Below, one piece after another: positions 1-56,885 of a stretch of 64,000 nt of DNA. The first letter of the stretch is position 1. Every line of letters begins with the position of its first letter. The notes below the pieces were generated by a model. That model had not been told where the DNA came from. It worked only from the letters and a program-made list of their open reading frames with translations, and searched no databases. Source of the stretch: Limonium bicolor (lineage: Eukaryota > Streptophyta > Magnoliopsida > Caryophyllales > Plumbaginaceae). Location: contig CM041779.1 of NCBI GenBank assembly GCA_023374045.1, forward strand, positions 296,184,167-296,248,166, given 5' to 3'. Made by a program: the position numbers and the translations under genes.

Positions 1-530
1 AGAAATCGATGCTCGGCGCAGAGGATTCTACCCTTGTGCCGCTCCAACCAATTCATTCCAATTATCAAGTCGAATCCCAATCCATTAAACTCGATGAAGG
101 ATATGGGAAACGATTCGCCTTTGATTTCAATCGTGGCTGCTTTGTAATACTTGGTGCACTGTACTCGCTCCTTCGATGGGAGAGTAACTAGGAAATTAGG
201 TAGCTCATCCGCATCTAGCTTCGACCTCTTCACAAAAGATGGTGATACGAAGGTGTGAGAGGCGTCGGAGTCGAATAACACATTGGCATCAATGCCGTTC
301 ACTGGGAAGGTTCCCGTTAAGATGGTGCCGCTTCTGCCGGCTTGTGCTTCGGTGAGGATACTCAGGACACCTTCGGTACCGAGTCCACAACCTATTGGAT
401 TCACAATTGGATAAGTATTGATGGTGGACACAAGTGGAATTAAATCAACACTGCTCTTTATTGATAAACCAACCATCATACATACCGTGTCTCTAATACA
501 CGTTCCTAATACATTACATGATACTATGAA
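1..530 (-). pseudogene. Retropepsin-type aspartic protease region of pol (partial)
   Basis: The minus-strand frame is open from about position 530 to the window edge. It contains the classic Ty3/gypsy protease blocks: a leader with LTEAQAGRSGTILTGTFPV, then the catalytic loop VLFDSDASHTFV, then an Ile/Leu-rich flap region and LIIGMNWLERH near the C-terminal end. The protease would release gag and pol products from the polyprotein. The catalytic loop normally reads Asp-Ser/Thr-Gly; here it reads Asp-Ser-Asp (codons at 272-264), which should weaken or kill activity. The frame differs from that of the AlkB domain just upstream and overlaps its stop at 532-534. Whether pol was reached by frameshifting or splicing cannot be told from one decayed copy. 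Confidence 0.8.
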
Positions 531-531
531 T

Positions 532-1286
532 TTAATACTTCCTAAAGGTAAGGTTCAGGCGTCCTGGTTTCATGTGTGTGGCATTGATTATTGCCGGTGG
601 TGCCGTATTCAACTTGATCTTGTTGATCCCGTGATACAGCATCCTAGAGTTTCCACCCATGATTAGGACATCTCCTGATCTCAATACCAATTTCTCTACG
701 AGGTCCACACGCTTCTGCTCGCTATACAGGAATACGGCGTCATCACCAATGGACCAAGACACTACGGGCACTCCTTGTTCAAGAGATTCCGCTCGTCCTT
801 GTCTTGGTGTAACCCAAGTCGTCCTTCTTTTCCATAGAAGTTGACGATACAAATGTCCGCTTCAAGTGCGGGGATCGGATCTTGTTCGCATTGTTGTGCA
901 AGTTCTACTGCTTGTGTGACGAGTGTCTGAAACTCTGGAGGTATTGTCGGTGGCATCGCTCCATCTTGTGTTCGTGTCTCCTGGTATGTCTTGGTATAAG
1001 GATTCCAGTCCTTTCCCAAGCACATCATCTTCAGCTTCATTTTCACTCCACCGGGGAATTCGGGTGTATAAAATCCTCCTTGACCCGTTCCTAGCTCGTT
1101 GCATCGTCGAATGATTGAGATTTGCGCTTCGGGTGTCAGGTATTCCCTTAGTAGAATCATACCTGGTCGGATGACCTGACACTATTCGTTGGTGTAGTAG
1201 TGGTTGGTGATGTCGATCTCTTCTTGATTCAGGTTTATCGGTATAGGATAGCAGATACTAAAGCTTCCTATGGTTATAAATTTCAT
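532..1286 (-). pseudogene. AlkB-like 2-oxoglutarate/Fe(II) dioxygenase domain inside the retrotransposon gag-pol
   Basis: AlkB proteins remove alkyl or methyl groups from nucleic-acid bases by oxidation. The sequence resembles plant ALKBH1-type proteins. From N to C it shows VIRPGMILLREYLTPEAQ, then GGFYTPEF and KMKLKMMCLGKDW, then NFYGKEGRLGLHQDKDE with the iron ligands His (809-807) and Asp (803-801). These are followed by VPVVSWSIGDDAVFLY, the third iron ligand His in MLYHG (633-631), and the 2-oxoglutarate-binding block RLNLTFR (561-541). All expected metal and cosubstrate residues are present. The copy is broken by an in-frame stop at 1184-1182 and by a one-base frameshift just after the HxD motif (about 770-795). 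It ends with its own stop at 532-534, next to the protease. Same strand and phase as gag if the upstream intron is removed. Identification as AlkB is secure; activity in intact relatives is inference. Confidence 0.9.
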
Positions 1287-1421
1287 CTACGGTGAGTACT
1301 AGTTTCAACTACTTCATTTAATGCTCAATACATACTTCAATTCATTTACTCATGCATTCACTCATACGATTACTCTAATACTTAGTCATGCTTCTCAAGG
1401 ATTCAAGGTTTAGATTATTAC
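1268..1421 (-). other. Candidate spliceosomal intron 3 between zinc knuckles and AlkB domain
   Basis: The minus-strand donor is CCAGGTAATA at 1422/1421 and a phase-compatible acceptor ATAACCATAG lies at 1268. It is 154 nt long, phase 1. Removing it places the AlkB domain in the gag reading frame. Other AG dinucleotides nearby could serve, and the pyrimidine tract is weak, so the acceptor is the least certain boundary. Confidence 0.45.
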
Positions 1422-1766
1422 CTGGGCCGGACTTAGGACCGGACCCATCACGGTCGATAACATGAAGGACAGGCTGCCTCTGGGGTGCGCCCCTCTGAGG
1501 ACCCCGGGATCCCGGTCCCTGCGGTGCCTGCTGAGCCGGTGCATCGCCAGATGCAACCTCCTTGCCTTCCCTCTGCTTGTAGCTTTGGAAATTTCCCTTT
1601 GGCTTCCCATTCTCTGGGCATCTATTGGCTGTGTGACCCACTTTCTGGCAGTTGTAGCATTTGATTTCTCTCCCATAGCAGTCCTTGCCGGGATGGTCTA
1701 GGTTGCACTTTCTGCACACATAGGTGCGACCATCGGAGAAGGTTTTGGTAAAACCGGAGCCAGAAC

Positions 1767-1851
1767 CTGAGGTTTAGAGGGTTAGCACATGTGTGCGTGG
1801 ATATACTAGATATGATACTTGTACGAATTCGAATTAGAAATAGAAGTTTAC
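1767..1851 (-). other. Candidate spliceosomal intron 2 in gag, before the zinc knuckles
   Basis: On the minus strand the donor is GGTAAAC and the acceptor is TAAACCTCAG, with a CTAAC branch-like motif about 20 nt before the end. It is 85 nt long, phase 1. Removing it joins the Lys-rich gag linker in frame to the zinc-knuckle segment. Left in, translation leaves the gag frame. Confidence 0.6.
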
Positions 1852-2131
1852 CCTTAGGTGGGTGTGATCTCAGTGGCTTAGCTGCCACCGGTGCAGAAGA
1901 ACCGAGTTGAAGCAGCTCAACCGGTTTGCCCTGCTCAGCATGGGCACTGCTCTCACTTGGGAAGTTCTTTTGAGTTTGATGAAAGAATTTCCCTTTCTTC
2001 TTTTTCCAGCTTTTACACTGGTTCTGCTCCTCGGCACTTGTGTTCTTATTGCTTGCCTTGCGCTTCAACGCGGTTTCTTCATCCCGTAGTTGGCAAGTGA
2101 TCTCAACGCGAGAAGCCGCGTGATAACACTC

Positions 2132-2245
2132 CTGGAGTTTCAGGTATTAGCCGGGATTCTCATTTAAGAAAGGATAAAGAAGAGATTCAAGGAATTCAAG
2201 GAAATTAAGGGATTGAAATGGTACTAAGGGTTAACCGATATTTAC
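2132..2245 (-). other. Candidate spliceosomal intron 1 in gag
   Basis: On the minus strand the left exon ends CTACAG and the intron begins GTAAAT; it ends in CTCCAG before GAGTGT. It is 114 nt long, AT-rich and contains stops. Both exon edges are in phase 0, and the joined protein stays gag-like (Cys-Tyr-His-Ala-Ala-Ser-Arg-Val-Glu after the junction). The boundaries are predicted from sequence only. Confidence 0.6.
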
Positions 2246-2902
2246 CTGTAGGGAGGTAAATCGAGTGTAGCCCATACCGTACCGAAGGCGATGGCTCAGA
2301 CCGCCATAGAAGCGATCGACCAACACCTGGCCGGTGTATCCTAAATCAGGTAGAAGACGGAGAATGGAGGTAAAGGTGCGGTAGTACTCATCGACAGACA
2401 TCTTCTCTGTCATCTTCAAGGCATCTAGCTCTAGCCTTTTCTTAGTTTTCACATGCTCCGGATAGTATTTTGAACGGAGGAGGGATGAAAAAGACTCCCA
2501 ATCGAAGGTGGGGTCATTGACATGCTCATTCTTGATCATTTTCCACCAATCCATGGCTGTGTGCTTTAGATAGTAGGCTGCAACTCTCACTCGAACTCCA
2601 GCAGGAGCTTCGAGGGTCTCAAAGGCTGTCTCCATCTCGGAGATGTAGGCTTCTAGCTTAGCCGAATCACTCTCGCCCCTAAAGTAAGGAGGGCGGAGTT
2701 CCGCTACAGCTTTTACCCAGTTAGCTTCTCTGGGTGGAGGGGGAGGGATTGGCCCCGCTTGTGTTTGGTTCTGTTGGTTCTGCTGCATAGCTTGGATTAC
2801 TTGTGGTAGCATCTGTGCTACCGTGGCAGCGACGATCTCAGCTATCGTCTACGCGCCAGGTCCGTCATTGGTCCCTCGGCGACCTGGACCTCTTCCTGAC
2901 AT

Positions 2903-3111
2903 CTGAATATTTAACATTCACATTAGGCTCCGCAAGATATGACTCAAAGGTCATGGAATTTAAGCAAGGTATCGTTCCTAAGAACGTCAAGGGTATCCGT
3001 TGGTAACAACGGTAGTTCCTAGTTAGGTTTCTAAGTATTCGTCTTACGACGGTTGAAATCCTAACTCGGTAATCCCTATGCTCGGTACTATGGACATCAG
3101 AGCGTTACTAC
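2903..3111 (-). other. Untranslated leader of the Ty3/gypsy element
   Basis: About 210 nt between the primer site and the gag start codon. I see no open frame or known domain in it. Confidence 0.6.
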
Positions 3112-3123
3112 GCTCTGATACCA
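3112..3123 (-). promoter_or_regulatory. Primer binding site for initiator Met-tRNA
   Basis: The minus strand reads TGGTATCAGAGC, complementary to the 3' end of plant initiator methionine tRNA. It lies five bases inside the LTR end (TGTTACA, 3129). This sets the element's orientation and LTR boundary. Confidence 0.9.
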
Positions 3124-3128
3124 CTTTT

Positions 3129-6100
3129 TGTAACACCCCTACCGTTAATCCTATGCTTACCGTCCAATCATCCCATAATTCAGAGTTACTTGCAGCGGAA
3201 ATACTACCTACTACGGCGGGTGATACAACGCCGCCAACCGCCCATACGGCTAGCAAGGCTACTACTACTTACAGTAATGGTCTGATGAACATAATATACT
3301 AAGCTACTATATTACTTACCAAAATACCACCTACCAGATACTTACATCAATGGATCACCGAGTATTAAAGTATATTCAATTACATTCCCATTTCCAACCT
3401 ACCAAAAGAATGAGTTTAATCACCTACTCATCTATACCAATACTCCATTCTATTCATATCCAAAAAGGTGTACCCCATGGTACACCGGCTAACAAAAGCT
3501 ACAGCCGTGTACTACTTAGTACACCATTCATAAATCCATGTTTACAATCCAAAAAGAAGACAAAGAAAATAAACTAAGTCTTCAACAGCTTCATCCCTCT
3601 CTTGCACCTGCATTCATATTAAAAACGGTGCCCCAAGGGGCTCAGCAAAAAGCTGCGCATAAACTCCGCATATACCGAGTGCTAGCTAGGGCACGCCGAC
3701 TATTTGACGTCCACTAAACATGCGATTCATTACTTTCATACATACATGCTTTGCATACAACATACATACATATACAATACATTATACACTCCAAGGCAAC
3801 AATACAATAGCATACACACAATACTTACCTTCACCGGGTTAGCCAAGTTACGCATCCGGGTTAATCGGAATGTTTTTACTCTTTTACTCATTTCATGGTA
3901 CTTACTCTTACTTTACTTACTTACTTCCAATTACTTACTTACTTTTACTCATGTTAAGTCGGTATGACCTCCGGCCCGGGGACTACTCCGTCCCACCACC
4001 GGGATTTACTTGACTCACCAATCCGGGATGCTACCCACTTAAGGGATTTGGGCCGCGGACCAGCTTAAGAGTCAGGAATTGGAGCCAACCTCTCGTGACT
4101 CCGCATCCTCACGCGTGGCCGAAACTATATCGGACTTCTACTCATTCCAATTTAATTACCAATTTAAGTTAGTTAGGTTAGCTTGTTAGGAACAAGTTAG
4201 AAGTCCAATCTCAATAACAATCGGTCACAGTACAGTATATCATACATACACACATTCATTATCGTCCATACATTTCATGAATTATACAAACTAAGAGTTA
4301 AAGAAAATATTCACAACATACAACACTACATATTCACAAGTATGTATAGTAACTCCGATTCGTGCATTTATCTTATTTGGTGATCAATTAGCACACAACA
4401 CACAAATCAGAGTAACCAAGATAGCATACGGGGCATGAGGAATTCATACCGTTCACCGTTGTACGTGTTCCCGAACGTCCTTCGGTGTCACAAATCAAAT
4501 CCTATGATATACATGCAATCGAATGATTAATCTAACTATCATTAACTTAATTAGATTACTCTTACGTTTCCTAATTCATACTTACTAAGTCTTCACATTC
4601 CTATACTTGAATTTTATTTGTTTACTTTTCATTACTTAACAATAGTATTCTCATGTATATATGTACATATGTATATGTGGGTATACATACATATATATAT
4701 ACATACTTACTATAGTTATACATTTTTTTTTGTAAGTAATGGGCCGTCCGACCCACCGTCTGACCCAAGCCCTGGGTCGGACCATTCCAGTAGGTTTACG
4801 TCCTCTGAAATTCTTTCCGTCCGACCCAGCACTATTCCGTCTGACCCATACACCTCTGGGTCAGACCATTCCAGAAAGTTTCGGTTCTGTCGTCCAAGCC
4901 CTGTCCGACCCACGTCCGACTCACCCTCTGGGTCAGACGGAGTCAGAAACTTCGACGACAGAAATTTTTTGCCTGTCCGACCCACGTCCGATCCACGGCC
5001 CTGGGTCGGACCATTCCAGAAAGGTTTACGTCTCGTTGTTTAAGCCATGTCCGACCCACGTCCGATCCAGACTCTGGGTCGGACGGTAGCAGAACATTGC
5101 TACAGACTTTATTTTTCTTTCCCAATTTCACCCATTGCTTCCCAACAATACATCTACATGTTAAACATTTAAACACTCTAAATCATGTTAATTCACTTCT
5201 TAATTCGTCACACAGTCCTATACTAACTTATACACATAATTTTCCTAGTTTTACTTCAACACCTACACAGTTTTCTTCCTTGATGCATCTTGCTACAGTT
5301 TTTGACACTTACACTCTCCTTCTATAACTCCCTCTTCTAATGTCATTTTTAACACCTCTAATACATTACAACTACATTAACTATCTGTCCAAATATACCC
5401 TCTATTTATTTAAATCAAAATCTGTTACAACCTATATCATTCACCTAGTTTTCAATTCATTAAGTGTTCTAACCCTAGGTAAATTTCGCCATAGTCTCCC
5501 CTATATTTTTATACTATCACCTCATTGTTTTCATTCATATTTACATTATATCACCTGTTTTAAACAACCAAAAATATACAAGCTCCCATACACGATACCA
5601 ATACTAAAACACTCATAAAAATTCCTGCACTCAACATTAATTCCCAACTATGTTTGTGACAGTTTTTAATTGTTTACAAAGGTTCAACACACTTGTTTCC
5701 TCCTACACATTTCACTACCAATACACTACCATTTAACAATACCAATTTTCACTTCTAAAAATCTGTTACATTATACATTACTAACTACACAAGAGAATGT
5801 GATTTACCTTGTTGCTTTACTAGCTTCTCCTTTCTTCTTCCTTCTTCTTTCCTTCTTCCTTTTCTCTCTTTCCACCGGTTTTAGCAACTTCCACAATCTT
5901 ACACTACAGCCCATATACATACACATTTCAATACACTAAACACTAACCCTAACTATTATTAAGCTTTAAGTAGGTTTTAGGGTTTAGAATTCTCATTACC
6001 TTTTAAGGGTGCAAATGAAGCTTGGAGTGGCTCAAGAACAAGATTTCCACCCCTTCCAAGAGACCAAAATCGGCTGGGTACAAAAGGAGGAAGGAGTTCA

Positions 6101-6974
6101 AAACTTGAAATCTTTATTTTGCAATGAGGGCAAGAAAAGGAAGTGGTTTTGGATTTCTTTTTACCTTAAACCAAAGAGGAGAAGGAGGGCCTTCTAATGG
6201 TGGTCTTGAAGCTCCAAAACAAGAATACCCATGGAGATGAAAGTTCTTGTTTTCGAATTTTGGAAAGATAGAAACGTTGCTCTTGATGAGAGGAAGACAA
6301 TGGTGTAATTTTTACAATTTTTGGAGAAGGTTCAAGAGGGTAACAAGAGGAGAGAAGGTGGTATTTTGTGGTGTTCTTCAATTCTCCATGGTTGCCATCG
6401 GTTTGGAGAAGAAGAAGGAAATGAGAGAGTGAGGGAGAGGGGATTCACGTGAGAGAGGAGGAAATAGAATAGGAGAGAGAGTGTGAGAGTGTGGGGATAA
6501 TAAAGTGGGTCACTTTATTGTTTTGTAGTTTTGTAAATAAGGAGAGTTAATAGAGTGTGAGAGAGAGAGGGGGAGCCCATCTGCTGCCAGCCCACACACA
6601 CAAACAGTTTGCATTTTTATTTTAAAAGTGGACACATAAGCTTGTTTTATTTATGTTTCTACCCCACAACTTCCCGTTTTTGACAGTTTTTACTAATTTC
6701 TCGTTTTCTTGATTTTATTGGTTCTAAAGCTTCACTAATATTTATTAATGATTATTTAGTTGACCAAAATTGTTACGAGTCTATTTGACCCGCTTAAAGA
6801 CACGTTTTCCCGGTAACCTCGAAAAATGCGCTTTAAGGTTCTTTAGTGATTTTAATCTGTTTTAAGGATCCGTTTTCTTTGGGATTTGTTCCTTCATGAT
6901 TATTTATACTTAATTAAGCTTCTAAATTATTCATTAGCCTAATTAATCGCTATTTTTAATTACGGGGTATTTCA
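3129..6974 (-). repeat. 5' LTR of the AlkB-carrying Ty3/gypsy element (about 3.8 kb)
   Basis: On the minus strand it begins TGAAATACCCCG at 6974 and ends GGGGTGTTACA at 3129, next to the primer site, so both ends carry TG...CA. At 3,846 bp it is very long. It contains AT-rich sequence, (TA)n tracts, a GC-rich hairpin array (4733-5095) and small ORFs without recognisable domains. The outer part from about 4590 is homologous to 6975-9509. Confidence 0.8.
4733..5095 (-). repeat. GC-rich array of short hairpins in the LTR
   Basis: Four to five degenerate units of about 80 bp. Each has facing copies of GTCCGACCCA and TGGGTCGGAC that can pair as a hairpin, separated by a spacer that in LTR orientation reads TTTCTGGAATGG. 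The array stands out against the AT-rich LTR. Equivalent arrays with different stem sequences lie at 7161-7435 and 42950-43285. Confidence 0.8.
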
Positions 6975-9509
6975 TCTTTACATTCTAGACTTGATTTAAA
7001 AATCATTCTTTACTCTTTACTACTTGAACTTACTTTCTTACCATTATTGTTACATTAATGGTGTATTACTAAAATCCCATATATATGTACATATTTATAT
7101 ATATGTATACATACATATGATTACTATATATATATATATATATATATATATTTTATAAGTTAGGGCCGACCGACCCACCGACTGACCCAACCTCTTGGGT
7201 CGGTCCATTCCAGTAAGTTTTTCCGTCCTCCAGACTTACCCGACCGACCCACCCACCGACCCAACCTCTGGATCGGTCGAAGTCAGAAACTTCGACGTTC
7301 AAGAATTTTTTGCCTGACTGACCCACGACCGACTCACGGCCTCTAGGTCGGTCCATTGCAGAAAGTTTTGTTCCAGTTGTTTATGCTCCGACCGACCCAC
7401 GACCGGTCCAACCTCTGGGTCGGTCGGTAGCAGATTTTGCCTACCTTTGTTTTCACTTCTTTTTCTTACCCCTTTCTTCCCCAATCTTCCTACATGTAAT
7501 CCCACATGTTTTAGTACCATTTAGGCTTCCTAAAGTACCTTAATTCATACACCAAATCCATTACTATATTCCTTTCCCATCCTCATATTGATTTACATAA
7601 TTTTCCTCATTTCCATTCCAGCACTTGCATCAGTTTTTTACTCCTCCTTTGCTACAGATTTTTAAACTCTCTTCTACCTCCCAATACTTCCTCAACTAAT
7701 GCCACTCCTAGCCTTCTAAATACATTATCTTACACCCTAGTTTTATCCCATCAACTAGTTCTTTTCCAAATCTGTTTCAAGATACTAAACTACTCCCTTT
7801 ACACTCTACAAATACACCTAGTTATTGTCTAGGCTATTCCCTCTCCTTACACATCCAAGTCCTCCAATTTTCCATACAAATTTGGGCAGAGGTTCCCCTA
7901 TATTTTTAACATTGCCCACATACATTTTCAGCTCACACATTCTTTCCGATTCCCATATCAAGTCACACATCATTCTACACACTATAACACAATATTTTTC
8001 CTGCACATACACATACATTACCCAATGTTTTACCCAAGCTTTTAAACCTCTTTTAAAACTTCAAAACTGTTACATTCTCTTCCTCATTATACTACAATAT
8101 ACTCACTACTCATTACTATATACTTTACACACTTCTAATACCCAAAATCTGTTACACTACATAATACAAAACCAACTCAAGGCAAGAGCATTTACCTTGT
8201 GATTTTAATTCCCCTTTCTTTCTTCCTTTCTCTTTCCTTCCTCTTTCTTCTCCTTTCTTTCCTTCTTGTTCTCGATTTCAAATGGAGTTCCCACTCCAAT
8301 GCTACAGCCCATACCAATACACATCAACTACTTAGCATTCATTCTTAACTAACCCTAGAGTTTAGATGTTTTTAGGGTTTAGAGAGAGGCATTACCTTCC
8401 AACCAATGAGTGAGGTCCTTGGTTAGCAAGAGAGTGAGATTTCAATCCCAAAGAAGAAGCCAAATTCGGCTGGAGCACAAGGAACAAAACAAGGGTTCAA
8501 CATGAATTTTCGTTTTGCCAAATGGGGCTAGAAAAAGATGAGTTTTCAAGATTATTTTTACCTCAAAACACCAATGAGAAAGAGGAGCTTCCAATGGTGG
8601 ACTCAAACCTTCAAATGGATAATACCCATGGAGATGAAAATGGAGCTTTTGAATTTTTGAAAGGAGAAAGATGTTCTCCTTTGCAAGGGGAATTCAATGG
8701 TACTAATTTTGTAATTTTTGGAGAAGGATTAAGGGTTGAACAAGAGGAGAGAAGGTGAGTTTTGTGGGGGTTTCCCCAAATCTCCATGGCTGTCGCCCAA
8801 GGAGGAAGAAGAGAATAGAGAGGGAGGGGGAACCTTGAGAGAAAGGGGGAGTAGAGGTGAGAGAGTGTTTTTATTTTTGTTTTTTTACTTTATTGTTGTC
8901 CTTTAGCATATTAGGAAAATAAAAGAGAGTGTGAGAGAGAGGGCTGCCGATTCCACACCCACACACACCCAATTCTTTTGCTTTTTATTTACAAAGGTGG
9001 ACACACTAATTTTGTTTATTTACACTCTCACCCCACAACTTCCCGGTTGTTACAGTTCTTACTAACCGCAACCCGTTTTCCGGAATTTTCTCGTTTAATT
9101 AATTTTATTGGTTATTAAGCTTCCATTAATGCTTAATTATTGTTAGTTAATGATTTATAATTTTTACGGGTTCGTTTGACCACTTAAAATCACGTTTTCG
9201 GGTTTTCTCGAAAAACGTGCGCTAAAGCCCTATTAGCGTTTTAATACATTATTTGGATCCGTTTTCTTTGGGAGTTGTTCCCATATATTATTTAGGCATC
9301 ATTAAGCCTTAAGAATCCATATAATACTCTAACCGAGGTCTCGTACCTCCTATGGTTATTTAACGCTTATTTAGCGTTTTTCGCTTTTCAAGCGTTTCTT
9401 TATTTCTTTTGGATTTATTTTTCCTTACTAGTATTACTTAGGTGTTATTAGGCCCTTAAATATGTATTAGAATAATCTTAATCCCTATATCTAAGTTTGG
9501 GGTATTTCA
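6975..9509 (-). repeat. Distal part of a second, related LTR interrupted by the AlkB-carrying element
   Basis: On the minus strand it begins TGAAATACCCC at 9509 and resembles the outer 2.4 kb of the 3129-6974 LTR. Shared features are the TA tract, the hairpin array (7161-7435), a CT-rich segment with CTACAGCCCAT, and a TTTAGGGTTTAG stretch. It stops exactly where the neighbouring element ends. The simplest reading is that the AlkB-carrying element inserted into this LTR and pushed the rest of it beyond the left edge of the window. No gene seen. Confidence 0.65.
7161..7435 (-). repeat. GC-rich hairpin array in the second LTR
   Basis: About four units with facing GACCGACCCA and TGGGTCGGTC arms and the conserved spacer CTGGAATGG (one unit CTGCAATGG) in LTR orientation. 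The stems differ from those at 4733-5095 on both arms, so pairing is kept. Confidence 0.8.
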
Positions 9510-16000: not shown

Positions 16001-18038
16001 AGAAGTAATTTTCTTACATGGAATAACTGCACCCCAAATACTCCATATGCCAAGGGCAGAGCAGTTTCAACAAAAGGGAGTAATAACTGCATATCTGGCG
16101 GTTCAATTGCATCAGGGTCAGTGAAGTACTTGACAACCTCTGGCGGAAGTCTACTTACCTGCAACATATAAAATGGTATCGTGAGTCATCAATGAGCAAG
16201 GTAAGTCCAAAGGATAAGGTCAGTCCACAGAAAAGAAAATTTTGAAGTTTCAGGTTGCTCAAACTCTACCTGAGATGCAATTCCTAACTCCACTGAGGAA
16301 CCAATTGTAAGAAGGAAGAGCAAGAAGGCTATCACATACTGCCAGAGCGTAGTTGCGCCAGGTTCTGACACTTCTTTGCGTAACATACCAAAACTAACTC
16401 GAGGACCCCCACGGGGGTCTGTTCCTTCAGAATTGGGTTCCTCCACCATAAAGAGATTATACTTGTCGGCAAATAGATCTCTAAGCTGCAACTGAAGTTT
16501 ATCAAAAACTTCTTCTCTTTTCCCTCTCAGATTTCCAAGGAAAAGAACTCCCTCACCGAGATCACCAAATGGCTCTTCTCGTGTCACCCAGAAAGTTGAG
16601 TATCCAAACAACTTATCTTTAATCATCTTTACATCAGACGGGTCAACCTTCTCAGGTCCTAGGAGCTCCATTAACTTAAATGAGTCAATTTGGAAATTGT
16701 TATACGCTGGCTCTATCGAGGAAATGGTCGACTGGAAACATTGAAAGAATCATTATAGCAGGCTTCATTAAGGATGTAAGTTAAATGCTTTTAGTGACAC
16801 CTTTTATACCCAACATTTGAATCATAAAACAACCAAACTTAAGCATGAAATATTGCAGTGGATTTTTAAATGACAATAGAATCCATATTGACTATCTTTC
16901 CCACATAAACCATGATATTTGGAACAGGGAAAACAACAAATGATCAAAATTAAGAAAGAAATAATAATCCCCCAGGACAGTCTAACTAGCAATATTAGAC
17001 TAGCAAGCAGTATTTTACAAACTGGAGCCATTGTTCCTAGGAGTGCTTCCGAAAACCACAAGGCTTTTCTTTATAAAGGTCCAAGTAGTACAACAGGTCC
17101 TGGGAACCACTCTTGATGCTTGAGCAAGGACAAATGTCAAGGTTCAAATAGTTGGATAGTGGCCAACTGTACAAACTGACTTGAAAAGGATAAGCCAAAT
17201 CCTGTTTGATTGAGAGGCCATGCAAGCGAAGTCACTCATTCCTAGGACTGCATCAATAACTTCTAACACTCATGGACTACACATTTAAATATTTAACAAA
17301 GTAAAAGTCTCGCCTTAAATTGCAGTTGGTGCAAATTTTTCTTCCCCTCCACCCATAGAAGTGGTTGTTCTTACGCAGGTGTCCTACCCTCGTATATGCT
17401 AATAGAAGTTTCTCAATACTCATCATTATATCAAAGTGCGAGTAAAATCAGCAGTTGCACTGAAGGAATGAAACAAAATCACCTACCCAATTATATCTTC
17501 TAAAAAACTGTAAGGGTCTGTAGGAGTGTTATAAATGAACAATCCTACCGCGAAAACCATTTTCATTCTATGCTTTAAAGCTCCTGATAGGTAAGTTTCT
17601 TCGATCTTCAAAAACTTAAAATACCTATAACCATCAGGAAAATGGAGAACATATGAATAGCAGGATTTATAAATTAAAGTGTTTAGTATGTTTTACCCTG
17701 GAAGTTGATTCAGAGCCCAATTCATCTTTCTCGGTGGGGCTCTCCTGGGCCTCTTTCGTGGCCAAATTCGAATCGCTGGACCCGTTGCGCTCTTCGTCGC
17801 CATCATTCCCACTAAAGCATCTCAACCCATCAAACCTTCGTCTAGATGCAATACTCAAGCCCTGTGTCCTTCTACCCATTCTTTGACACATGTAGCAGTT
17901 TCTGAGGGGCCGATAACCATTATCAAATTGCCTGAGACTTCTGACGTCCAAAAACGTCGCAGCCAAGCCATTGCTGGACGCTGAGCGAAGGATGGAGATG
18001 TTCCAAATGCTTGGACTACACCCCGCAAGTGTCCCCAT
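13063..18038 (-). CDS. EGY1: EGY1-type chloroplast site-2 zinc metalloprotease, 10 exons, intact
   Basis: Exons on the minus strand: 18038-17697, 16731-16270, 16158-16018, 15399-15298, 14478-14267, 13983-13933, 13859-13790, 13560-13492, 13361-13311, 13221-13063. All junctions are GT...AG and in phase, giving 552 residues, close to the usual length of about 550. It is a thylakoid intramembrane protease of family M50; Arabidopsis EGY1 is needed for chloroplast development, chlorophyll accumulation and gravitropism in the hypocotyl. Visible features are a Ser/Arg-rich plastid transit region (1 to about 60), an acidic Ser-rich stretch, GNLRG at 180-184 and several membrane segments. The zinc site HEIGH is at 315-319, split by intron 3, and NLLPVGCLDGGR (from Asn446, Asp454) carries the third ligand. 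The protein ends GLVTTF. I chose EGY1 over EGY2 from LFGYSTFWVT, EEPNSEG and the C-terminus. No disabling change seen. Confidence 0.95.
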
Positions 18039-21250: not shown

Positions 21251-24200
21251 TGAAATACCCCTAACCTTAAAAACTTAATTAAATGATCTAATAATGATCT
21301 AAGATGGACTAAACATCTAATCACATTGACTAAGGCCTAAACGTGCCTTAAAAGTCAACTGAGAACAACAGTGGTCAACACAAAGCAAGACTTTGCACCC
21401 TTTGACTGTTTAGGGTAAATAAATACCCAAATGAACTACTTAGGACCTAAAAAATTTTCCTAAGCTTATTAACACATTACTAAACATATTAAAATTGTTG
21501 GACAACACTCTAACACAAAGAACAAGCATTTTCATGCTTCAAGGTCAAGTAGGGCAAAAATATGCTCTAAGGGAACCTTAAAGGTCTAATGACCTCTAAA
21601 TGATATAAAATTGGATACCATGATCAAATATCATGTAAGGAACACAACAAAACAATTCTCAAAGAAAACAGAGCTCAGAAACACCCTGCGACTCAAAATG
21701 TGCACTAAAATTCCTTAAAGCACGTTTTTGTGTAATTGCCTTCTAAATTGGCTTTTAAATGGGCTTAAAGGTTATAATTACCTATAAATATGCTAATATA
21801 TCATATTATAACATATTAGGAATTTAATTCCAGAAATTTACAAATTTTTACAAATTTAATATTAAAATATTAATAAAACCCTAAAAGGGGGCCCGTTTGA
21901 GTCAACGTTGACCAAGAATGGTCAAGAGGTCAAAGTTGACCCCTTGGATTCCATAGATTCGACAGCCACAAGACAGGGGGAGCCTGATTGAACTGAATTA
22001 TTGACAAAAGGAGACTTAGTGGAGTGTTACTTTTCCATTTAATAAGAAATTAATACTTTAACTTACCTTTTCCTTATTTTCTTCATTATTCCTCCCTTAT
22101 CTCTTGTCTCCAACGACTTCTTGCTCCTTCCTTCTGTCCCATCCAAGCTCAAATGCTCCCAATCTCACCATTGTTGAGGTTTGAAGCTATCTAGCAAGGA
22201 AACCAACCTAATTCACCTAAGGTAATGGTTTAAGGCATAAAATAGCTCATTTTCTTCCTTTCTTCAAGGGCTATCTTATGAGCTAACTTCTATACTCTTC
22301 CCATGGCTCAATCTCAGTGTGTGGATGCTAGAGTAAGAGTTCAAATTCGTTGGTAGGGGTTCTTGGAGCTAAGAACACAAAAATCATCCTTTAAGGTAAA
22401 AATGTGCTTTAAGCACATATCTTTTGATTCCCTTCAAATTCGGCTGTGAAACTTTGTTTCTAAGCTTATAATCTTCATCTTAACATACTTATTCAGTTGG
22501 TACATCAAGAGCTTCGAAGTATAACCAGATCCAAGCCTAAAACACCATTTTAGGCATTTTAAACAAGGTAAAGATTAGCCATCTTCTAATCTGAGTTATA
22601 CCAGTTTAAAGCTTGGTTTTAGTAGCTCTTTTAACACTCTTTGCCTACTGTAAAAAAAGGCCGTGACCAACCTTATTTACCTTGGTATTTTGAGGTAAAT
22701 TTTACCTTGAAAATTGACATTAAACACTTCTTATGGTTAGATCTTGCTTGGAGACTAAAGGCCTTAATTGCTGTTTGAAAACATTAAATAATGCTGCTTG
22801 TGGAATTTTATCCTAAGCTGGGCGGGCCAAACAAGGCTTAAACTAGGCAAAAACAAGGTATAAATCACTTAAAACTTCACTTGTGTATAGAATATGTTTT
22901 TAACATATGTATATATATTGTGCCGTGAGTGAATGGTTACTTAAGGTCTTATTTTGACCTTAGGTGGTTAAGAATGGTTTAATAAATTAATATAACTAAT
23001 TTAAAAGCATAATTGTCAATTTAAGACATTATGTGGAAAATTGGTAAATAAAGAATATACGGTAAGGGCCGAGAGTTATAGTACTTTTGGACATTAATGT
23101 GTAATTTATTTATAAGCCAATGTTTGTAATAAGGCCATGTACTTTAGGCCATTTTATTTATGCATTATAAGCTTTTAATTAAGTTTAGGTGCTAAATATG
23201 CATTACCGCATATTATTGGGGTTTTAGTGTAAATAAATAAACTTAGGGGCTATATATTAATAAAGCCAAAAATTGGAAGTTTAAATGAATTATATAAAAT
23301 TATAAGATTATATAAAGTTTTTGGGTGAAATTGCAAATATTGGAAAGTTAGGGGTAATCTATGTAATTACCATGGAAGTAGGGTCAAAATGATGTTTGGA
23401 AGTCAAACATTGACCAAGCAAAAGACTTTGACCAGATTTGATGATTTATTAATTTAATTATCAAATTATACTAAGTTATGTATTAAAATGTAAAATTACA
23501 TAACACATGGGTATATGTGTGATTACCGAAAGTTTTAGGTATGAAATGGTGTTTTATACACCTATGGAGTACTAGGAATTTTTAGGAATTTATTTGGTTA
23601 AGTTGGAGTTAATATGGATTTTATGAGTATAATATATGATATTTTATATCATTGTTACATATAGGTAACATATATGGTGGAAACCGTAAATATTGAAAAT
23701 ATAAGATTAGGAATGATGTTTATAACCTTTTGGTATAGTTTGGTGATTTTTGGAGTTATATATAAGGCTTTATAAAGATATATGTATAATATATGGTTTT
23801 GATGACATAAGGAAACTATGTATTATAAATTGGGGGGATTTGGTAATTATACAAAGTTAGGTGGAAAGAATTTAATTTAACAGACCCTAGGGTCTATTCA
23901 TTCGGTAATTATAAACCTTTAAAACAATAGGTTATAATTATGTTAAGGTTTAAGGATTATAATATAAGGTATATATTATAAGTGTGACAATGGAATATAA
24001 TTTGGGATTGATTTGTAAAATCTGAAAGTATGGTGGAATTTAATGAAACCGAAAATACTATGGTCCATTTGGTAATTTATACAAATTATAACTATAGGTT
24101 ATAATTGTTTTAATGACATAAATGTCATAATATGTGTTATATAACTATAATATAACATTATATAAATGGTGTGGTGGATTTTGTAATAATTAAGAGAGCA

Positions 24201-26565
24201 AGAGTGCTGTTCGGAAATAATGGGAATTTTAGACAAAAAATTATAATATGGTTTTCAATGTTATGAAGGTTATAACATTTGTAATATAAGAAATTTCGTT
24301 AAAAGAGAATGAATATATTATAAGATTTACCATATAATAAATGGTCTCATATACATGTATATAAATAAATATATGTTATGATGTGGAAAAATATAATGTG
24401 GTGCAATAACCATATATGATCATAATTAAAATGATATAGATAAGGAGAGAAGAATTAACAAACATTAGATATGGAAATTCTAATGTTAGGAGTATACATG
24501 GAAAATGAGGATTTATATAATTCAAAGTATTTTTACATATGAATTATACCACATTAAACTTGGAAAAACAAACCTTAGGAAAATAAATACTAAGGTGAGA
24601 TGTATAATAAACGATTAAGATTATACATGCAATATAGTGACAAGCTATATAATATACAAATGTGTATTAAATTACATGCGATAATAGACGTTTAAAGTTA
24701 AGTATATTAATATACTCGACGTAACCACGCAAATAGAAGTATAACGTCTTTCCTAATCCCGAGTCAAACCGAAAACACACAAACGTTATCAGTTAGCAAC
24801 GGGGAATAAACCGGGATGGGTTAGTAACGGTACGGGGTGCCAGAGTGTATTGTTAGTATGAGATGCTGATGTATAGTGTGATGCATATTGATAGATTGTT
24901 AGAGACGACACGAGGAGCATCGGATCTAGCTGGATTATACTCCACCGTAATACTTTCAGGGTGAACGGTATGTTATTTATTTGGCTTGATTGTCTCTGAG
25001 GATTTCCTCAGTTCAGACATTGTGTGAAAATCTGTGATAAGATTGAATGTCTGCTTGTGTGAATTAATATGCTTGAGTTGTGTATTAATGTTGCCTTATT
25101 AATACTGTGGTACGATAACAGTACCGTTCGTATATATGAACATATTATAAAACGAACTAGCGCAAATGATGCTATCTTATATGTGTGATATAAAGAACGT
25201 AAGTAAAAACGTTGTAGCATTAGGATAATAAGATATATACATATATTATCCGAGACTTATATACGGAGCATTGGCCTGTTTAACGCCGCTCTCGTGTTTA
25301 ACACTGGATCCCGAGTCGACATACTCATTATTGGACTAATGACCTTAGTCTGCTGTGTTAAGAAGAATAGTAGAACGATGCGATGGAATAAGTAAGTTTA
25401 TCAAGGGGATGTGGCTCTTGTTGTGAACTGTGATCCTTAACGATACTAGGATACCGTGTGGTAGCCGTAAGTATCTGGATAAATTCCAACGAACTACAGA
25501 TGGTTCGTAGGTCGGAGACTCTACCGCTGGAGTGGCTACTACGTGGGTGACCCGCCATAGATGATGGTTAACTTAGCGACACGTCGTTCTAACGAGACGT
25601 TGTCATTAGACATGACTGAACAATTACGAACGACTATATTAGCTCGTACATTAGGCGGACATTATTCTGGGCTTGCCTGCCAAAGACGAGAATTTATACT
25701 CGTTTATAATTCTTTGTTGTTTTCGACTTGTTGTTCATTGGTTATGCTTGGTGGTTATGTGTGGTATGTTGGTGGATTGGTTGAGGTGAGTCATTGTACT
25801 CATATGTGTGTTGTGAATTGGTTTGATTGAGTCGTTGTACTCTTGTCTGTTTGGTGAACTGCTTTAGTCGAGTCGCTGTGCTCGTGAGTGGATTATTGTG
25901 GATCGTTGTCGAGTGAGTCGCCGTACTCATATTATGAACTATCAAGTGTTTGTTGAAATAGGGTCTTGTACACGTATAAGCGTTGTACGCTTTCAGGGTG
26001 GTGTTTACGATGCGATGTGTGAAGCCGGGGGCTTGTTGTTAATTGAATTTATTGCTATATATATCGTTGCTTTACAGTTTTATATTAAACTACTTGCATG
26101 AAATGATGAATTGCATGCTCTCGACCAATTAACTGAGGGTCTGAGGGGGCATGACGGTCATGTAGTAACATACTCAGCAGGGGCTGATTCCATACCACAA
26201 ACAACCATTTTTGCAGGTATGCAGCTTCCGGTGTCGGCAAAGAGAGGGACGCGCTGGGTAGTTTAATTACAGTTGTTTAAAATATGCACTGTTGCATTTT
26301 GATACGAACTTAGAAAAGTGTATAGGATTGGGATACTTATAATGCTCACTGTGAATGTATTTTATATTGGTTTGGGAAGGTTAGATCTATCTCTTGTTGT
26401 CACTGTGGGAAATTGTTTCGTATTTAAGAATATGTCAGTAAGCACCTCATTACTCGTATGGGCGAGTGAGAACGGTGACACCAGTAGTTCAAGTATTGAG
26501 ATTACCGCTGCGATTATAATGTTAAGTAAGATGATTAGGAGCCGATTAGAGTAGGGTGTGTTACA
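21251..26565 (+). repeat. 5' LTR of the LARD element
   Basis: Starts TGAAATACCCC and ends GGGTGTGTTACA. Extremely AT-rich centre (about 22900-24700), more balanced 3' third. No ORF with a recognisable domain. Confidence 0.92.
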
Positions 26566-26569
26566 AAAG

Positions 26570-26581
26570 TGGTATCAGAGC
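26570..26581 (+). promoter_or_regulatory. Primer binding site for initiator Met-tRNA (LARD)
   Basis: TGGTATCAGAGC, four bases after the LTR end. Confidence 0.92.
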
Positions 26582-32035: not shown

Positions 32036-35000
32036 TGAAATACCCCTAACCTTAAAAACTTAATTAATGATCTACTAATGATCTAAGATGGACTAAACAT
32101 CTAATCACATTGACTAAGGCCAAACGTGCCTTAAAAGTCAACTGAGAACAACAGTGGTCAACACAAAGCAAGACTTTGCACCCTTTGACTGTTTAGGGTA
32201 AATAAATACCCAAATGAACTTCTTAGGACCTAAAATTTTTTCCTAAGCTTATTAACACATTACTAAACATATTAAAATTGTTGGACAACACTCCAACACA
32301 AAGAACAAGCATTTTCATGCTTCAAGGTCAAGTAGGGCAAAAATATGCTCTAAGGGAACCTTAAAGGTCTAATGACCTCTAAATGATATAAATTGGATAC
32401 CATGATCAAATATCATGTAAGGAACACAACAAAACAATTCTCAAAGAAAACAGAGCTCAGAAACACCATGCGACTCATAATGTGCACTAAAATTCCTTAA
32501 AGCACGTTTTTGTGTAATTGCCTTCTAAATTGGCTTTTAAATGGGCTTAAAGGTTATAATTACCTATAAATATGCTAATATATCATATTTAACATATTAG
32601 GAATTTAATTCCAGAAATTTAAAAATTTTTACAAATTTAATATTAAAATATTAATAAAACCCTAAAAGGGGGCCGTTTGAGTCAACGTTGACCAAGAATG
32701 GTCAAGAGGTCAAAGTTGACCCCTTGGATTCCATAGATTCGACAGCCACAAGACAGGGGGAGCCTGATTGAACTGAATTATTGACAAAAGGAGACTTAGT
32801 GGAGTGTTACTTTTCCATTTAATAAGAAATTAATACTTTAACTTACCTTTTCCTTATTTTCTTCATTATTCCTCCCTTATCTCTTGTCTCCAACGACTCC
32901 TTGCTCCTTCCTTCTGTCCCAGCCGAGCTCACATGCTCCCAATCTCACCATTGTTGAGCTTTGAAGCTATCTAGCAAGGAAACCAACCTAATTCACCTAA
33001 GGTAATGGTTTAAGGCATAAAATAGCTCATTTTCTTCCTTTCTTCAAGGGCTATCTTATGAGCTAACTTCTATACTCTTCCCATGGCTCAATATCAGTGT
33101 GTGGATGCTAGAGTAAGAGTTCAAAATCGTTGGTAGGGGTTCTTGGAGCTAAGAACACAAAAATCATCCTTTAAGGTAAAAATGTGCTTTAAGCACATAT
33201 CTTTTGATTCCCTTCAAATTCGGCTGTGAAACTTTGTTTCTAAGCTTATAATCTTCATCTTAACATACTTATTCAGTTGGTACATCAAGAGCTTCGAAGT
33301 ATAACCAGATCCAAGCCTAAAACACCATTTTAGGTATTTTAAACAAGGTAAAGATTAGCCATCTTCTAATCTGAGTTATACCACTTTAAAGCTTGGTTTT
33401 AGTATCTCTTTTAACACTCTTTGCCTACTGTAAAAAAGGCCGTGACCAACCTTATTTACCTTGGTATTTTGAGGTAAATTTTACCTTGAAAATTGACATT
33501 AAACACTTCTTATGGTTAGATCTTGCTTGGAGACTAATCATGCCTTAATTGCTGTTTGAAAACATGTAAATAATGCTGTGGAAATTTTATCCTAAGCTGG
33601 GCGTGGCCAAACAAGGCTTAAACTAGGCAAAAACAAGGTATAAATCACTTAAACCTTCACTTGGTATATTAATATGTGTTTATACATATGTATATATTTG
33701 TGCCGTGAGTGAATGGTTAATTAAGGTCTTATTTTGACCTTAGGTGGTTAAGGAATGGTTTAATAAATTTATATAACTAATTAATAAGCATAATTGTCAA
33801 ATTTAAGACATTATGTGGAAAATTGGTAAATAAAGAAAATATATGGTAAGGGCCGAGAGTTTATAGTACTTTTGGACATTTATGTGTAATTTATTTTATA
33901 AGCCAATGTTTGTAATAAGGCCATGTACTTTAGGCCATTTTATTTATGCATTTATAAGCTTTTAATTAAGTTTAGGTGCTAAATATGCATTACCGCATAT
34001 TATTGGGGTTTTAGTGTAAATAAATTAAACTTAGGGGCTATATATTAATAAAGCCGAAAATTGGAAGTTTAAATGAATTTTATAAAATTATAAGATTATA
34101 TAAAGTTTTGGGTAAAATTGCAAATATTGGAAAGTTAGGGGTAATCTATGTAATTACCGTGGAAGTAGGGTCAAAATGATGTTTGGAAGTCAAACATTGA
34201 CCAAGCAAAAGACTTTGACCAGATTTGATGATTTATTAATTTAATTATTAAATTATACTAAGTTATGTATTAAAATGTAAAAATTACATAACACATGGGT
34301 ATATGTGTGATTACCGAAAGTTTTGGGTATGAAATGGTGTTTTATACACCTATGGAGTACTAGGAATTTTTAGGAATTTATTTGGTTAAGTTTGGAGTTA
34401 ATATGGATTTTATGAGTATAATATATGATATTTTATATCATTGTTACATATAGGTAACATATATGGTGGAAACCGTAAATATTGAAAATATAAGATTAGG
34501 AATGATGTTTATAACCTTTTGGTATAGTTTGGTGATTTTTGGAGTTATATATAAGGCTTTATAAAGATATATGTATAATATATGGTTTTTGATGACATAA
34601 GGAAACTATGTATTATAAATTGGGGGGATTTGGTATTATACAAAGTTAGGTGGAAAGAATTTAATTTAAACAGACCCTAGGGTCTGTTCGGTAATTATAA
34701 ACCTTTAAAACAATAGGTTATAATTATGTTAAGGTTTAAGGATTATAATATAAGGTATATATTATAAGTGTGACAATGGAATATAATTTGGGATTGATTT
34801 GTAAAATCTGAAAGTATGGTGGAATTTAATGAAACCGAAAATACTATGGTCCATTTGGTAATTTATAACAAATTATAACTATAGGTTATAATTGTTTTAA
34901 TGACATAAATGTCATAATATGTGTTATATAACTATAATATAACATTATATAAATGGTGTGGTGGATTTTGTAAATAATTAAGAGAGCAAGAGTGCTGTTC

Positions 35001-37350
35001 GGAAATAATGGGAATTTTAGAACAAAAATTTATAATATGGTTTTCAATGTTATGAAGGTTATAACATTTGTAATATAAGAAATATTCGTTAAAAGAGAAT
35101 GAATATATTATAAAGATTTACCATATAATAAATGGTCTCATAATACATGTATATAAATAAATATATGTTATGATGTGGAAAAATATAATGTGGTGCAATA
35201 ACCATGTATGATCATAATTAAAATGATATAAGATAAGGAGAGAAGAATTACAAACATTAGATATGGAAATTCTAATGTTAGGAGTATACATGGAAAATGA
35301 GGATTTATATAATTCAAAGTATTTTTACATATGAATTATACCACATTAAACTTGGAAAAACAAACCTTAGGAAACTAAATACTAAGGTGAGATGTATAAT
35401 AAACGATTAAGATTATACATGCAATATAGTGACAAGCTATATAATATACAAATGTGTATTAAATTACATGCGATAATAGACGTTTAAAGTTAAGTATATT
35501 AATATACTCGACGTAACCGCGCATGAAGTATAACGTCTTTCCTAATCCCGAGTCAAACCGAAAACTCGACAAACGTTATCAGTTAGCAACGGGGAATAAA
35601 CCGGGATGGGTTAGTAACGGTACGGGGTGCCGTAGTGTATTGTTAGTATGAGATGCTGATGTATAGTGTGATGCATATTGATAGATTGTTAGAGAAGACA
35701 CGAGGAGCATCGGATCTAGCTGGATCATACTCCACCGTAATACTTTCAGGGTGAACGGTATGTTATTTATGTGGCTTGATTGTCTCTGAGGATTTCCTCA
35801 GTTCAGACATTGTGTGAAAATCTGTGATAAGATTGAATGTCTGCTTGTGTGAATTAATATGCTTGAGTTGTGTATTAATGTTGCCTTATTAATACTGTTG
35901 TACGATAACAGTACCGTTCGTATATATGAACATATTATAAAACGAACTATCGGCAATGATGCTATCTTATATGTGTGATATAAAGAACGTAAGTAAAAAC
36001 GTTGTAGCATTAGGATAATAAGATATATACATATATTATCCGAGACTTATATACGGAGCATTGGCCTGTTTAACGCCGCTCTCGTGTCTAACACTGGATC
36101 CCGAGTCGACATACTCAGGATTGGACTAATGACCTTAGTCTGCTGTGTTAAGAAGAATAGTAGAACGATGCGATGGAATAAGTAAGTTTATCAAGGGGAT
36201 GTGGCTCTTGTTATGAACTGTGATCCATTAACGATACTAGGATACCGTGTGGTAGCCGTAAGTATCTGGATAAATTCCAACGAACTACAGATGGTTCGTA
36301 GGTCGGAGACTCTACCGCTGGAGTGGCTACTGCTGTGGGTGACCCGCCATAGATGATGGTTACTTAGAGACACGTCGTTCTAACGAGACGTTGTCATTAG
36401 ACATGACTGAACAATTACGAACGACTATATTAGCTCGTACATTAGGCGGACATTATTCGGGCTTGCCTGCCAAAGACGAGAATTTATACTCGTTTATAAT
36501 TCTCGTTGTTTTCGCCTTGTTGTTCATTGGTTATGCTTGGTGGTTATGTGTGGTATGTTGGTGGATTGGTTGAGGTGAGTCATTGTACTCATATTGTGTG
36601 TTGAGAATTGGTTTGATTGAGTCGTTGTACTCTTGTCTGTTTGGTGAACTGCTTGAGTCGAGTCGCTGTGCTCGTGAGTGGATTATTGTGGATCGTTGGT
36701 CGAGTGAGTCGCCGTACTCAGTTATGAACTATCAAGTGTTTGTTGAAATAGGGTCTTGTACACGTATAAGCGTTGTACGCTTTCAGTGGTTGTTACGATG
36801 CGATGTGTGAAGCCGGGGGCTTGTTGTTAATTGAATTTATTGCAATATATATCGTTGCTTTACAGTTTTATATTAAACTACTTGCATGAAAATGAATTGC
36901 ATGCTCTCGACCAATTAACTGAGGGTCTGAGGGGGCATGACGGTCATGTAGTAACATACTCAGCAGGGGCTGATTCCATACCACAAACAACCATTTTTGC
37001 AGGTATGCAGCTTCCGGTGTCGGCAAAGAGAGGGACGCGCTGGGTAGTTTAATTACAGTTGTTTAAAATATGCACTGTTGCATTTTGATACGAACTTAGA
37101 AACATGTATAGGATTGGGATACTTAGAATGCTCACTGTGAATGTATTTTATATTGGTTTGGGAAGGTTAGATCTATCTCTTGTTGTCACTGTGGGAAATT
37201 GTTTCGTATTTAAGAATATGTCAGTAAGCACCTCATTACTCGTATGGGCGAGTGAGAACGGTGACACCAGTAGTTCAAGTATTGAGATTACCGCTGCGAT
37301 TATAATGTTAAGTAAGATGATTAGGAGCCGATTAGAGTAGGGGTGTTACA
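32036..37350 (+). repeat. 3' LTR of the LARD element
   Basis: Same length as the 5' LTR (5,315 bp), same TG...CA ends, followed by the CAAAG duplication. Confidence 0.92.
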
Positions 37351-56500: not shown

Positions 56501-56885
56501 TCACATTGATTCGTTTCTATTGTTCCGCTGCAATTGGGTGGACAACCGACATGGACTCCAAAATGATAAAGGACTTATTTTGGTTGATCTTTCACGTGTT
56601 ACAACTAATAAGGAAGATCAGTTTGTGTTGGGTAAAGACTGTGACCAGGTGTTTTATGTTGAAGACCCAAAAGCTAGTAGATGGCATGTTGTTCTTCCAG
56701 GGAGAAGACCGGTTTTGTTTGAGGATGAAAACAACGACGATGATGATAATGAGATGATAGATGAAACTGTATCGTTGCATACAGGGTTGCATGATTCAAC
56801 TGATGATTTACAAAATGATGATGTTCAGACCATCTACGCTCGATCAGACCATAATGAGGGGGTTTGGGTAGAAAACAGATCATGA
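53592..56885 (+). pseudogene. TNP2-type CACTA transposase (nearly intact)
   Basis: It cuts and pastes the CACTA element by binding its ends in the nucleus. The start codon at 53592 opens a transposase-associated N-terminal domain, with CPCVDCG at about codons 37-43. A +1 slip near 53820 and a compensating shift near 53920 interrupt the frame. The main frame 53871-56885 encodes 1004 residues. In it the TNP2 core spans about 200-410, including LCTDGMNPYG, WPVLLVIYNLPSWLCMKRKY and NIDVYLAPLIDDL. HCLDIMHIVKNV lies at about 457-468, a DUF4218-type domain at about 550-665 (YPFERYMGILKG), and a DUF4216-type domain at about 865-940. An acidic C-terminal tail follows. Only the N-terminal junction is damaged. 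Confidence 0.92.

Follow-up and report, generated by a model that had tools for sequence, protein, structure and literature searches.

An ALKBH1-type domain as a probable alternative exon between gag and pol in a Ty3/gypsy retrotransposon of Limonium bicolor

Does an AlkB-type demethylase domain lying between the gag and the protease of a plant retrotransposon belong to the element, and, if so, how is it expressed and what might it do? The question is raised by a stretch of 64,000 nucleotides from Limonium bicolor (contig CM041779.1, hereafter the window), at one end of which the original prediction, made from the letters alone, had placed such a domain. Our reading, to which we give a probability of about 0.78, is that a multi-intron, chromovirus-like Ty3/gypsy element captured the catalytic part of an ALKBH1-type enzyme and retains it between gag and pol, where it serves as an alternative exon.

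Anatomy of the element and place of the AlkB domain

The minus strand of positions 1–6974 carries the 5′ part of a Ty3/gypsy LTR retrotransposon, with its LTR, primer site, gag, AlkB, and protease (Table 1). The 5′ and 3′ LTRs differ in 59 of 3844 columns, a K2P distance of 0.0155 that corresponds to about 0.6 million years at the rate of 1.3e-8 per site per year, and the target duplication AAAGA is found on both outer flanks of the pair. The primer site is, we assume, of the tRNA-Met type. In the window, the Pfam names attached to the element are Retrotrans_gag, zf-CCHC, 2OG-FeII_Oxy_2 (both AlkB pieces), and RVP_2; the reverse transcriptase (RT), RNase H, and integrase zinc-binding domains of the same element lie outside the window, with integrase after RT. 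A piece of the integrase core scores 28.8 bits, below its cut-off of 32.6, and the chromodomain PF00385 in the element tail scores 24.3 bits (E 2.9e-5), below its cut-off of 25.1. The Ty3/gypsy identity that had been predicted is confirmed by the paired LTRs with their target duplication, the primer site, gag, protease, RT, and RNase H, and by the position of integrase after RT; the element may be a chromovirus, perhaps Tekay/Del-like. About 6.9 kb separate the integrase-core and chromodomain pieces (locus L129, sense 2338–9223), probably owing to a nested insertion.

Table 1 Features of the element in the window, in order of transcription
Feature	Position	Strand	Remarks
5′ LTR	3129..6974	-	3846 bp; starts TGAAATACCCC, finishes GGGGTGTTACA; partner 3′ LTR in L129/L130
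Primer binding site TGGTATCAGAGC	3112..3123	-	five bases past LTR
gag exon 1 (capsid region)	2246..2902	-	PF03732 match in 2231-2848
Intron 1	2132..2245	-	GT-AG, phase 0
gag exon 2	1852..2131	-	present in 46 of 48 AlkB-selected copies
Intron 2	1767..1851	-	GT-AG, phase 1
gag exon 3, CCHC zinc knuckle at 1659-1618	1422..1766	-	PF00098; donor common to AlkB and protease
Intron 3, ahead of AlkB	1268..1421	-	GT-AG, phase 1
AlkB exon, ALKBH1 type, own stop 534-532	532..1267	-	PF13532
Non-coding spacer with protease splice acceptor at end (AG 393-392)	392..531	-	
Protease exon	1..391	-	PF08284; runs on beyond window into RT, RNase H, integrase (L129)

The AlkB domain of the window copy is recognized in two pieces by PF13532 (cut-off 31.2 bits), at 762–1181 (E 6.3e-20, 72.6 bits) and 535–861 (E 4.2e-21, 76.5 bits), both on the minus strand, and it shows the HxD motif, the distal histidine, and the RLNLTFR block. 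Gag (PF03732), the CCHC knuckle (PF00098), and the protease (PF08284) are encoded on the same strand, and the domain sits between the knuckle and the protease. Domain, motifs, and order are thus as the original prediction had described them, while the limits of 532 to 1286 given there stand at the 532 end only: the predicted acceptor ends at 1268, so that the exon begins at 1267, and the ATG at 1286 falls within predicted intron 3. A chance resemblance to AlkB is excluded by these E-values together with the recurrence of the domain in other copies, described below. The window copy itself is damaged, with an in-frame stop at 1182–1184 and a frameshift near 795 in AlkB and a stop at 2851–2849 in gag, and its protease reads DSD at the place where that of copy L081 reads DSG.

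Recurrence, selection, and kind of enzyme

Protein searches with the window AlkB recovered two relatives that run through to the C-terminal motif, P0001 (69% identity over 210 residues) and P0002 (59% over 273 residues), and the search with gag gave one hit at E 0.001, P0121. The gag protein P0121 and the AlkB protein P0001 each derive from a 26,621-base contig of another source, which suggests that gag and AlkB are linked there as well. P0001 gave matches at 150 of 150 scored places in the 2.92-Gb genome from which the window comes, 137 of them without a stop; the first-look match counts of 50,036 and 65,172 are not copy numbers. Among 48 copies selected by AlkB similarity, and so biased toward an intact AlkB (two of the loci contain 500 N), gag exon 3 and AlkB were never missing; protease was present in 47, exon 2 of gag in 46, and its exon 1 in 44, with the order gag exons, AlkB, protease preserved. 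The catalytic motifs (HxD or HxD-like, YHG, and RxNxTFR) occur in 48/48 of their translations, with or without stops. A second set of 19 copies was drawn by gag, taking approximately every eighth of the best 150 matches to window gag exon 1; AlkB lies between gag and protease in 19/19, as an open frame of 252 residues in seven and broken in 12. Three of the best 150 gag matches (C6:290263676, C1:330009481, and C4:268387987) have open frames of 327–352 residues in place of the usual 230 or so and are possibly copies without intron 1. No relative of the element was found in the viral contigs scanned, and none of the 49 long proteins with an ALKBH1-like domain carried a gag, protease, or RT domain according to Pfam annotation.

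Comparison of the domain across copies, as had been proposed, gave a pN of 0.134 and a pS of 0.709 for the window against the 48 copies, a ratio of 0.194 with synonymous sites close to saturation; shifting the codons by one or two bases raised pN/pS to 1.32 and 1.50. The corresponding ratios were 0.223 for protease (44 copies) and 0.254 for gag exon 1 (42 copies). For AlkB, the ratio was 0.223 over the 190 pairs formed by the gag-selected copies and the window, 0.149 among the seven open gag-selected copies, and 0.196 between open copies of the window subfamily and eight of the other subfamily. Judged by these substitution ratios, AlkB has been under purifying selection about as strong as that on gag and protease.

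The double-stranded beta helix fold, HxD...H, and RxNxTxR characteristic of AlkB family dioxygenases are all present. In the sequence search, the closest solved structure for both window pieces was rice OsALKBH1, and ALKBH5 was not among the hits at E 0.01. For the intact relative P0001, the predicted structure (pLDDT 93.3) superimposes best on OsALKBH1, with a TM score of 0.91 and 52% identity; E. coli AlkB comes second (TM 0.82, 32% identity) and ALKBH5 is at rank 45 (TM 0.56). By sequence and by fold, the element enzyme is therefore nearest to the plant ALKBH1 subfamily rather than to other AlkB homologues, in keeping with the resemblance originally reported. Phylogenetic analysis of 69 sequences united the window with P0001, P0002, P0003, and P0005 in a single clade (98/92), placed outside the land-plant ALKBH1 proteins sampled; grouping this clade with angiosperms (p 0.40) or with seed plants (p 0.45) is not rejected. 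The AlkB tree proposed at the outset was thereby realized for ALKBH1 among the plant ALKBH subfamilies. A search of prokaryote contigs (80 of 578 loci kept) yielded bacterial AlkB proteins. AlkB proteins mostly from Acidobacteriota (L001–L033) are 39–47% identical to the element enzyme, compared with 32% for E. coli AlkB.

Splicing of gag around the AlkB exon

The coding pieces are separated by gaps bounded by GT and AG, with matching phases. When the window is compared with copies L081, L084, and L087, on which this comparison rests (L087 has N at intron 1), exons and splice dinucleotides can be aligned, but not the bodies of the gaps. P0121 finishes three residues past LQ, the same LQ that closes window gag exon 1, and in the natural copy L122 introns 1 and 2 are absent to the base with intron 3 retained. 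The conserved splice sites and the precise intron loss in L122 rule out that the gaps are mere decay.

The phase-1 donor of gag exon 3 is in phase both with the AlkB acceptor ending at 1268 and with the protease acceptor ending at 392. A search of the main subfamily for the predicted junction of gag exon 3 to protease, allowing up to three mismatches, found 14 places, eight of them exact, against three for the reversed-pattern control, which was thus not empty. AlkB is missing in all 14, where the join links gag exon 3 to protease. Six copies (L133, L134, L137, L139, L142, and L146) have lost both intron 1 and intron 2, and five (L135, L140, L143, L144, and L145) have retained both; L136 retains intron 1 only, and L138 and L141 are partly resolved. 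The predicted junction of gag exon 3 to AlkB was found at nine places in a related subfamily, distinct from that of the window (four exact, control 0), all nine in phase across the join, though L151 is frame-shifted at a point further upstream. For the window type, the junction of gag exon 3 to protease likewise gave nine places (four exact, control 0); the four examined (L175–L178) lack AlkB and are of one sequence type, three of them (L175–L177) being 80–82% identical to the window in gag exon 1. They may represent one loss that multiplied, and, with AlkB-less copies in existence, AlkB may be dispensable in cis. Copy L177 also lacks introns 1 and 2, so that gag to protease forms one reading frame.

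As read from these genomic copies, gag is divided into three exons and one donor is used in two ways, and both splice products have been reverse-transcribed into the genome. Joined to the AlkB exon, the donor past the zinc-knuckle exon would yield an in-frame Gag-AlkB fusion ending at the AlkB stop; joined past AlkB to the protease acceptor, it would yield an in-frame Gag-Pol. Since AlkB has its own stop, and the protease frame closes before it in all 35 of the 48 copies with a recognized acceptor, Pol should generally require the splice that skips AlkB. The 35 closed frames rule out frameshifting from AlkB to protease as a general route to Pol; the window copy is the exception, its protease frame being open across the AlkB stop, so that frameshifting is possible for that copy alone. 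The original prediction of an AlkB domain carried in the element holds in that the domain is a stable member, and is amended in that it appears to be an exon that is spliced alternatively and ends in a stop of its own, and not a plain piece of a gag-pol open reading frame.

The genomic pattern bears on two other accounts of the locus. One would make AlkB a fragment of a host gene inserted once, outside the element proper, as the broken state of the window copy could suggest; the domain is nevertheless at the same place in 19/19 gag-selected copies, adjoins gag exon 3 in 48/48 AlkB-selected ones, and is under selection, which leaves this account a negligible chance and answers the doubt, voiced with the original prediction, that relatives elsewhere might lack AlkB. 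The other sees in the AlkB-less junction copies an older lineage that never had AlkB, and not splice products. L144 and L145 are indeed near each other and divergent from most, and L175–L177 share their one sequence type and their distance from the window. Against this, the 13 usable AlkB-less copies of the main set need 11 changes on the gag-exon tree, among 44 AlkB-bearing copies and the window; AlkB-bearing sisters adjoin AlkB-less copies, as with L140 by L095 and L135 by L124; introns 1 and 2 are also absent from at least six of the 14; and the join coincides exactly with the predicted splice sites. An older lineage is on these grounds very improbable, and splicing remains our preferred source of the AlkB-less copies.

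Possible role, known systems, and neighbouring features

The Gag-AlkB fusion most likely acts on cDNA or RNA of the element itself, a view built on an inferred packaging and substrate. Unspliced RNA would be the usual genome of the element, and the Gag part of the fusion would bring AlkB into the virus-like particle. There the enzyme could strip N6-methyladenine from single-stranded cDNA, the form that rice ALKBH1 prefers, or alternatively take methyl marks off the packaged RNA, and demethylation would give the element protection against silencing based on modification or against lesions that stop reverse transcription. The full proposal is tentative, and we rate it somewhat below even odds: alternative splicing of the intron-split gag would put a host-derived demethylase on part of the coat, and the enzyme, packaged with the genome, would remove N6-methyladenine (or m6A) from the nascent cDNA or RNA before integration, as a particle-borne counter-defence against a host that marks element nucleic acid with adenine methylation.

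Two other roles have to be set beside this one. AlkB might repair alkylation lesions (1-methyladenine and 3-methylcytosine) in element nucleic acid, like E. coli AlkB and with no erasure of host marks; E. coli AlkB is the second-best structural match, yet fold and sequence are nearer to rice ALKBH1, which is described as a 6mA demethylase in the part of the source available (PMC10469495), and repair appears to us unlikely, though not by far the less credible role. It is more doubtful still that AlkB has its target outside the particle, in RNA or DNA of the host, where it would loosen silencing either as a protein translated by itself or as a soluble Gag-AlkB. The ATG shortly upstream of the AlkB exon in the window copy would suit such a role, as would the orchid enzyme, which is a separate ORF whose authors, in the accessible text, discuss a host RNA target (PMC9289625); that ATG, however, is within a predicted intron, and AlkB is joined in frame to gag at nine genomic junctions. 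Action on element nucleic acid within the particle is the role that we prefer. Should 6mA prove to be the substrate of the enzyme, the contested function of this mark in plants could be tested, since a parasite would be keeping an eraser of it under selection.

The orchid elements correct the view, expressed with the original prediction, that no standard Ty3/gypsy architecture with AlkB is known. According to the available portions of that study (PMC9289625), Gypsy_Pa_2799 of Phalaenopsis and its kin are Ogre/Tat elements with an ALKBH5-type domain as a separate ORF, the enzyme demethylates m6A in single-stranded RNA in vitro, and a screen of 121 genomes found the domain in no other genome. 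The orchid elements and the element of the window are alike in being multi-copy plant Ty3/gypsy elements with an intact captured AlkB-family enzyme. As far as the same portions describe them, the Phalaenopsis elements have a dual RNase H, a tRNA-Arg primer site, an enzyme of ALKBH5/9/10 type, and AlkB in a separate ORF2 with gag and pol in one ORF (PMC9289625), whereas the window element has a chromodomain-like tail, the primer site TGGTATCAGAGC, an enzyme of ALKBH1 type, introns in gag, and, placed between gag and protease, an AlkB exon whose reading frame continues that of gag. It would thus be a second capture of AlkB by plant Ty3/gypsy elements, from another AlkB branch and with a different architecture, and methylation of nucleic acids becomes a plausible pressure to which plant retrotransposons are repeatedly exposed. 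Among the matches listed in the open-licence PMC literature there was neither an ALKBH1-type AlkB element nor an alternatively spliced one. Rice OsALKBH1 (5xeg/5xoi) and ALKBH1C/1D of other plants share the fold and catalytic residues of the element enzyme, which differs in forming a clade separate from the sampled land-plant proteins and in its predicted fusion to Gag by splicing. Dinoflagellate and charophyte retrotransposons have also acquired a nucleic-acid modification enzyme, in their case, as the consulted part of the source has it, a cytosine methyltransferase and not a putative demethylase (PMC5890265).

Plant LTR elements are generally without introns, Ogre and EVADE being the exceptions named in the available text of a 2025 review (PMC12786077). 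Ogre carries a single intron that separates gag-protease from RT, in EVADE a single splice takes out the protease domain, and in both, so far as the sources seen in part describe them, splicing sets the ratio of Gag to Pol products (PMC6317226, PMC12786077), as it would here. Unlike Ogre and EVADE as so described, the window element has gag in three exons and a captured enzyme as alternative exon; here a plant LTR element combines a gag interrupted by several introns with an alternative exon, the use of which appears to be recorded in genomic retrocopies.

Directly upstream of the element, on the minus strand at 7080–9509, is a truncated LTR with the same start point, 67–80% identical in pieces to the element LTR, which may be an older relative into which the element inserted. 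Imperfect short repeats of a GGGTCGGAC-like unit occur within both LTRs, at 4741–5094 in that of the element and at 7166–7434 in the truncated one. Elsewhere in the window, 21251–26570 and 32036–37356 are direct copies of 5.3 kb, 97.6% identical, that resemble the LTRs of another large element. An open piece at 16189–16749 (minus) presumably resembles plastid EGY metalloproteases, and the open frame of 1005 residues at 53868–56885 (plus) resembles what we take to be a CACTA transposase.
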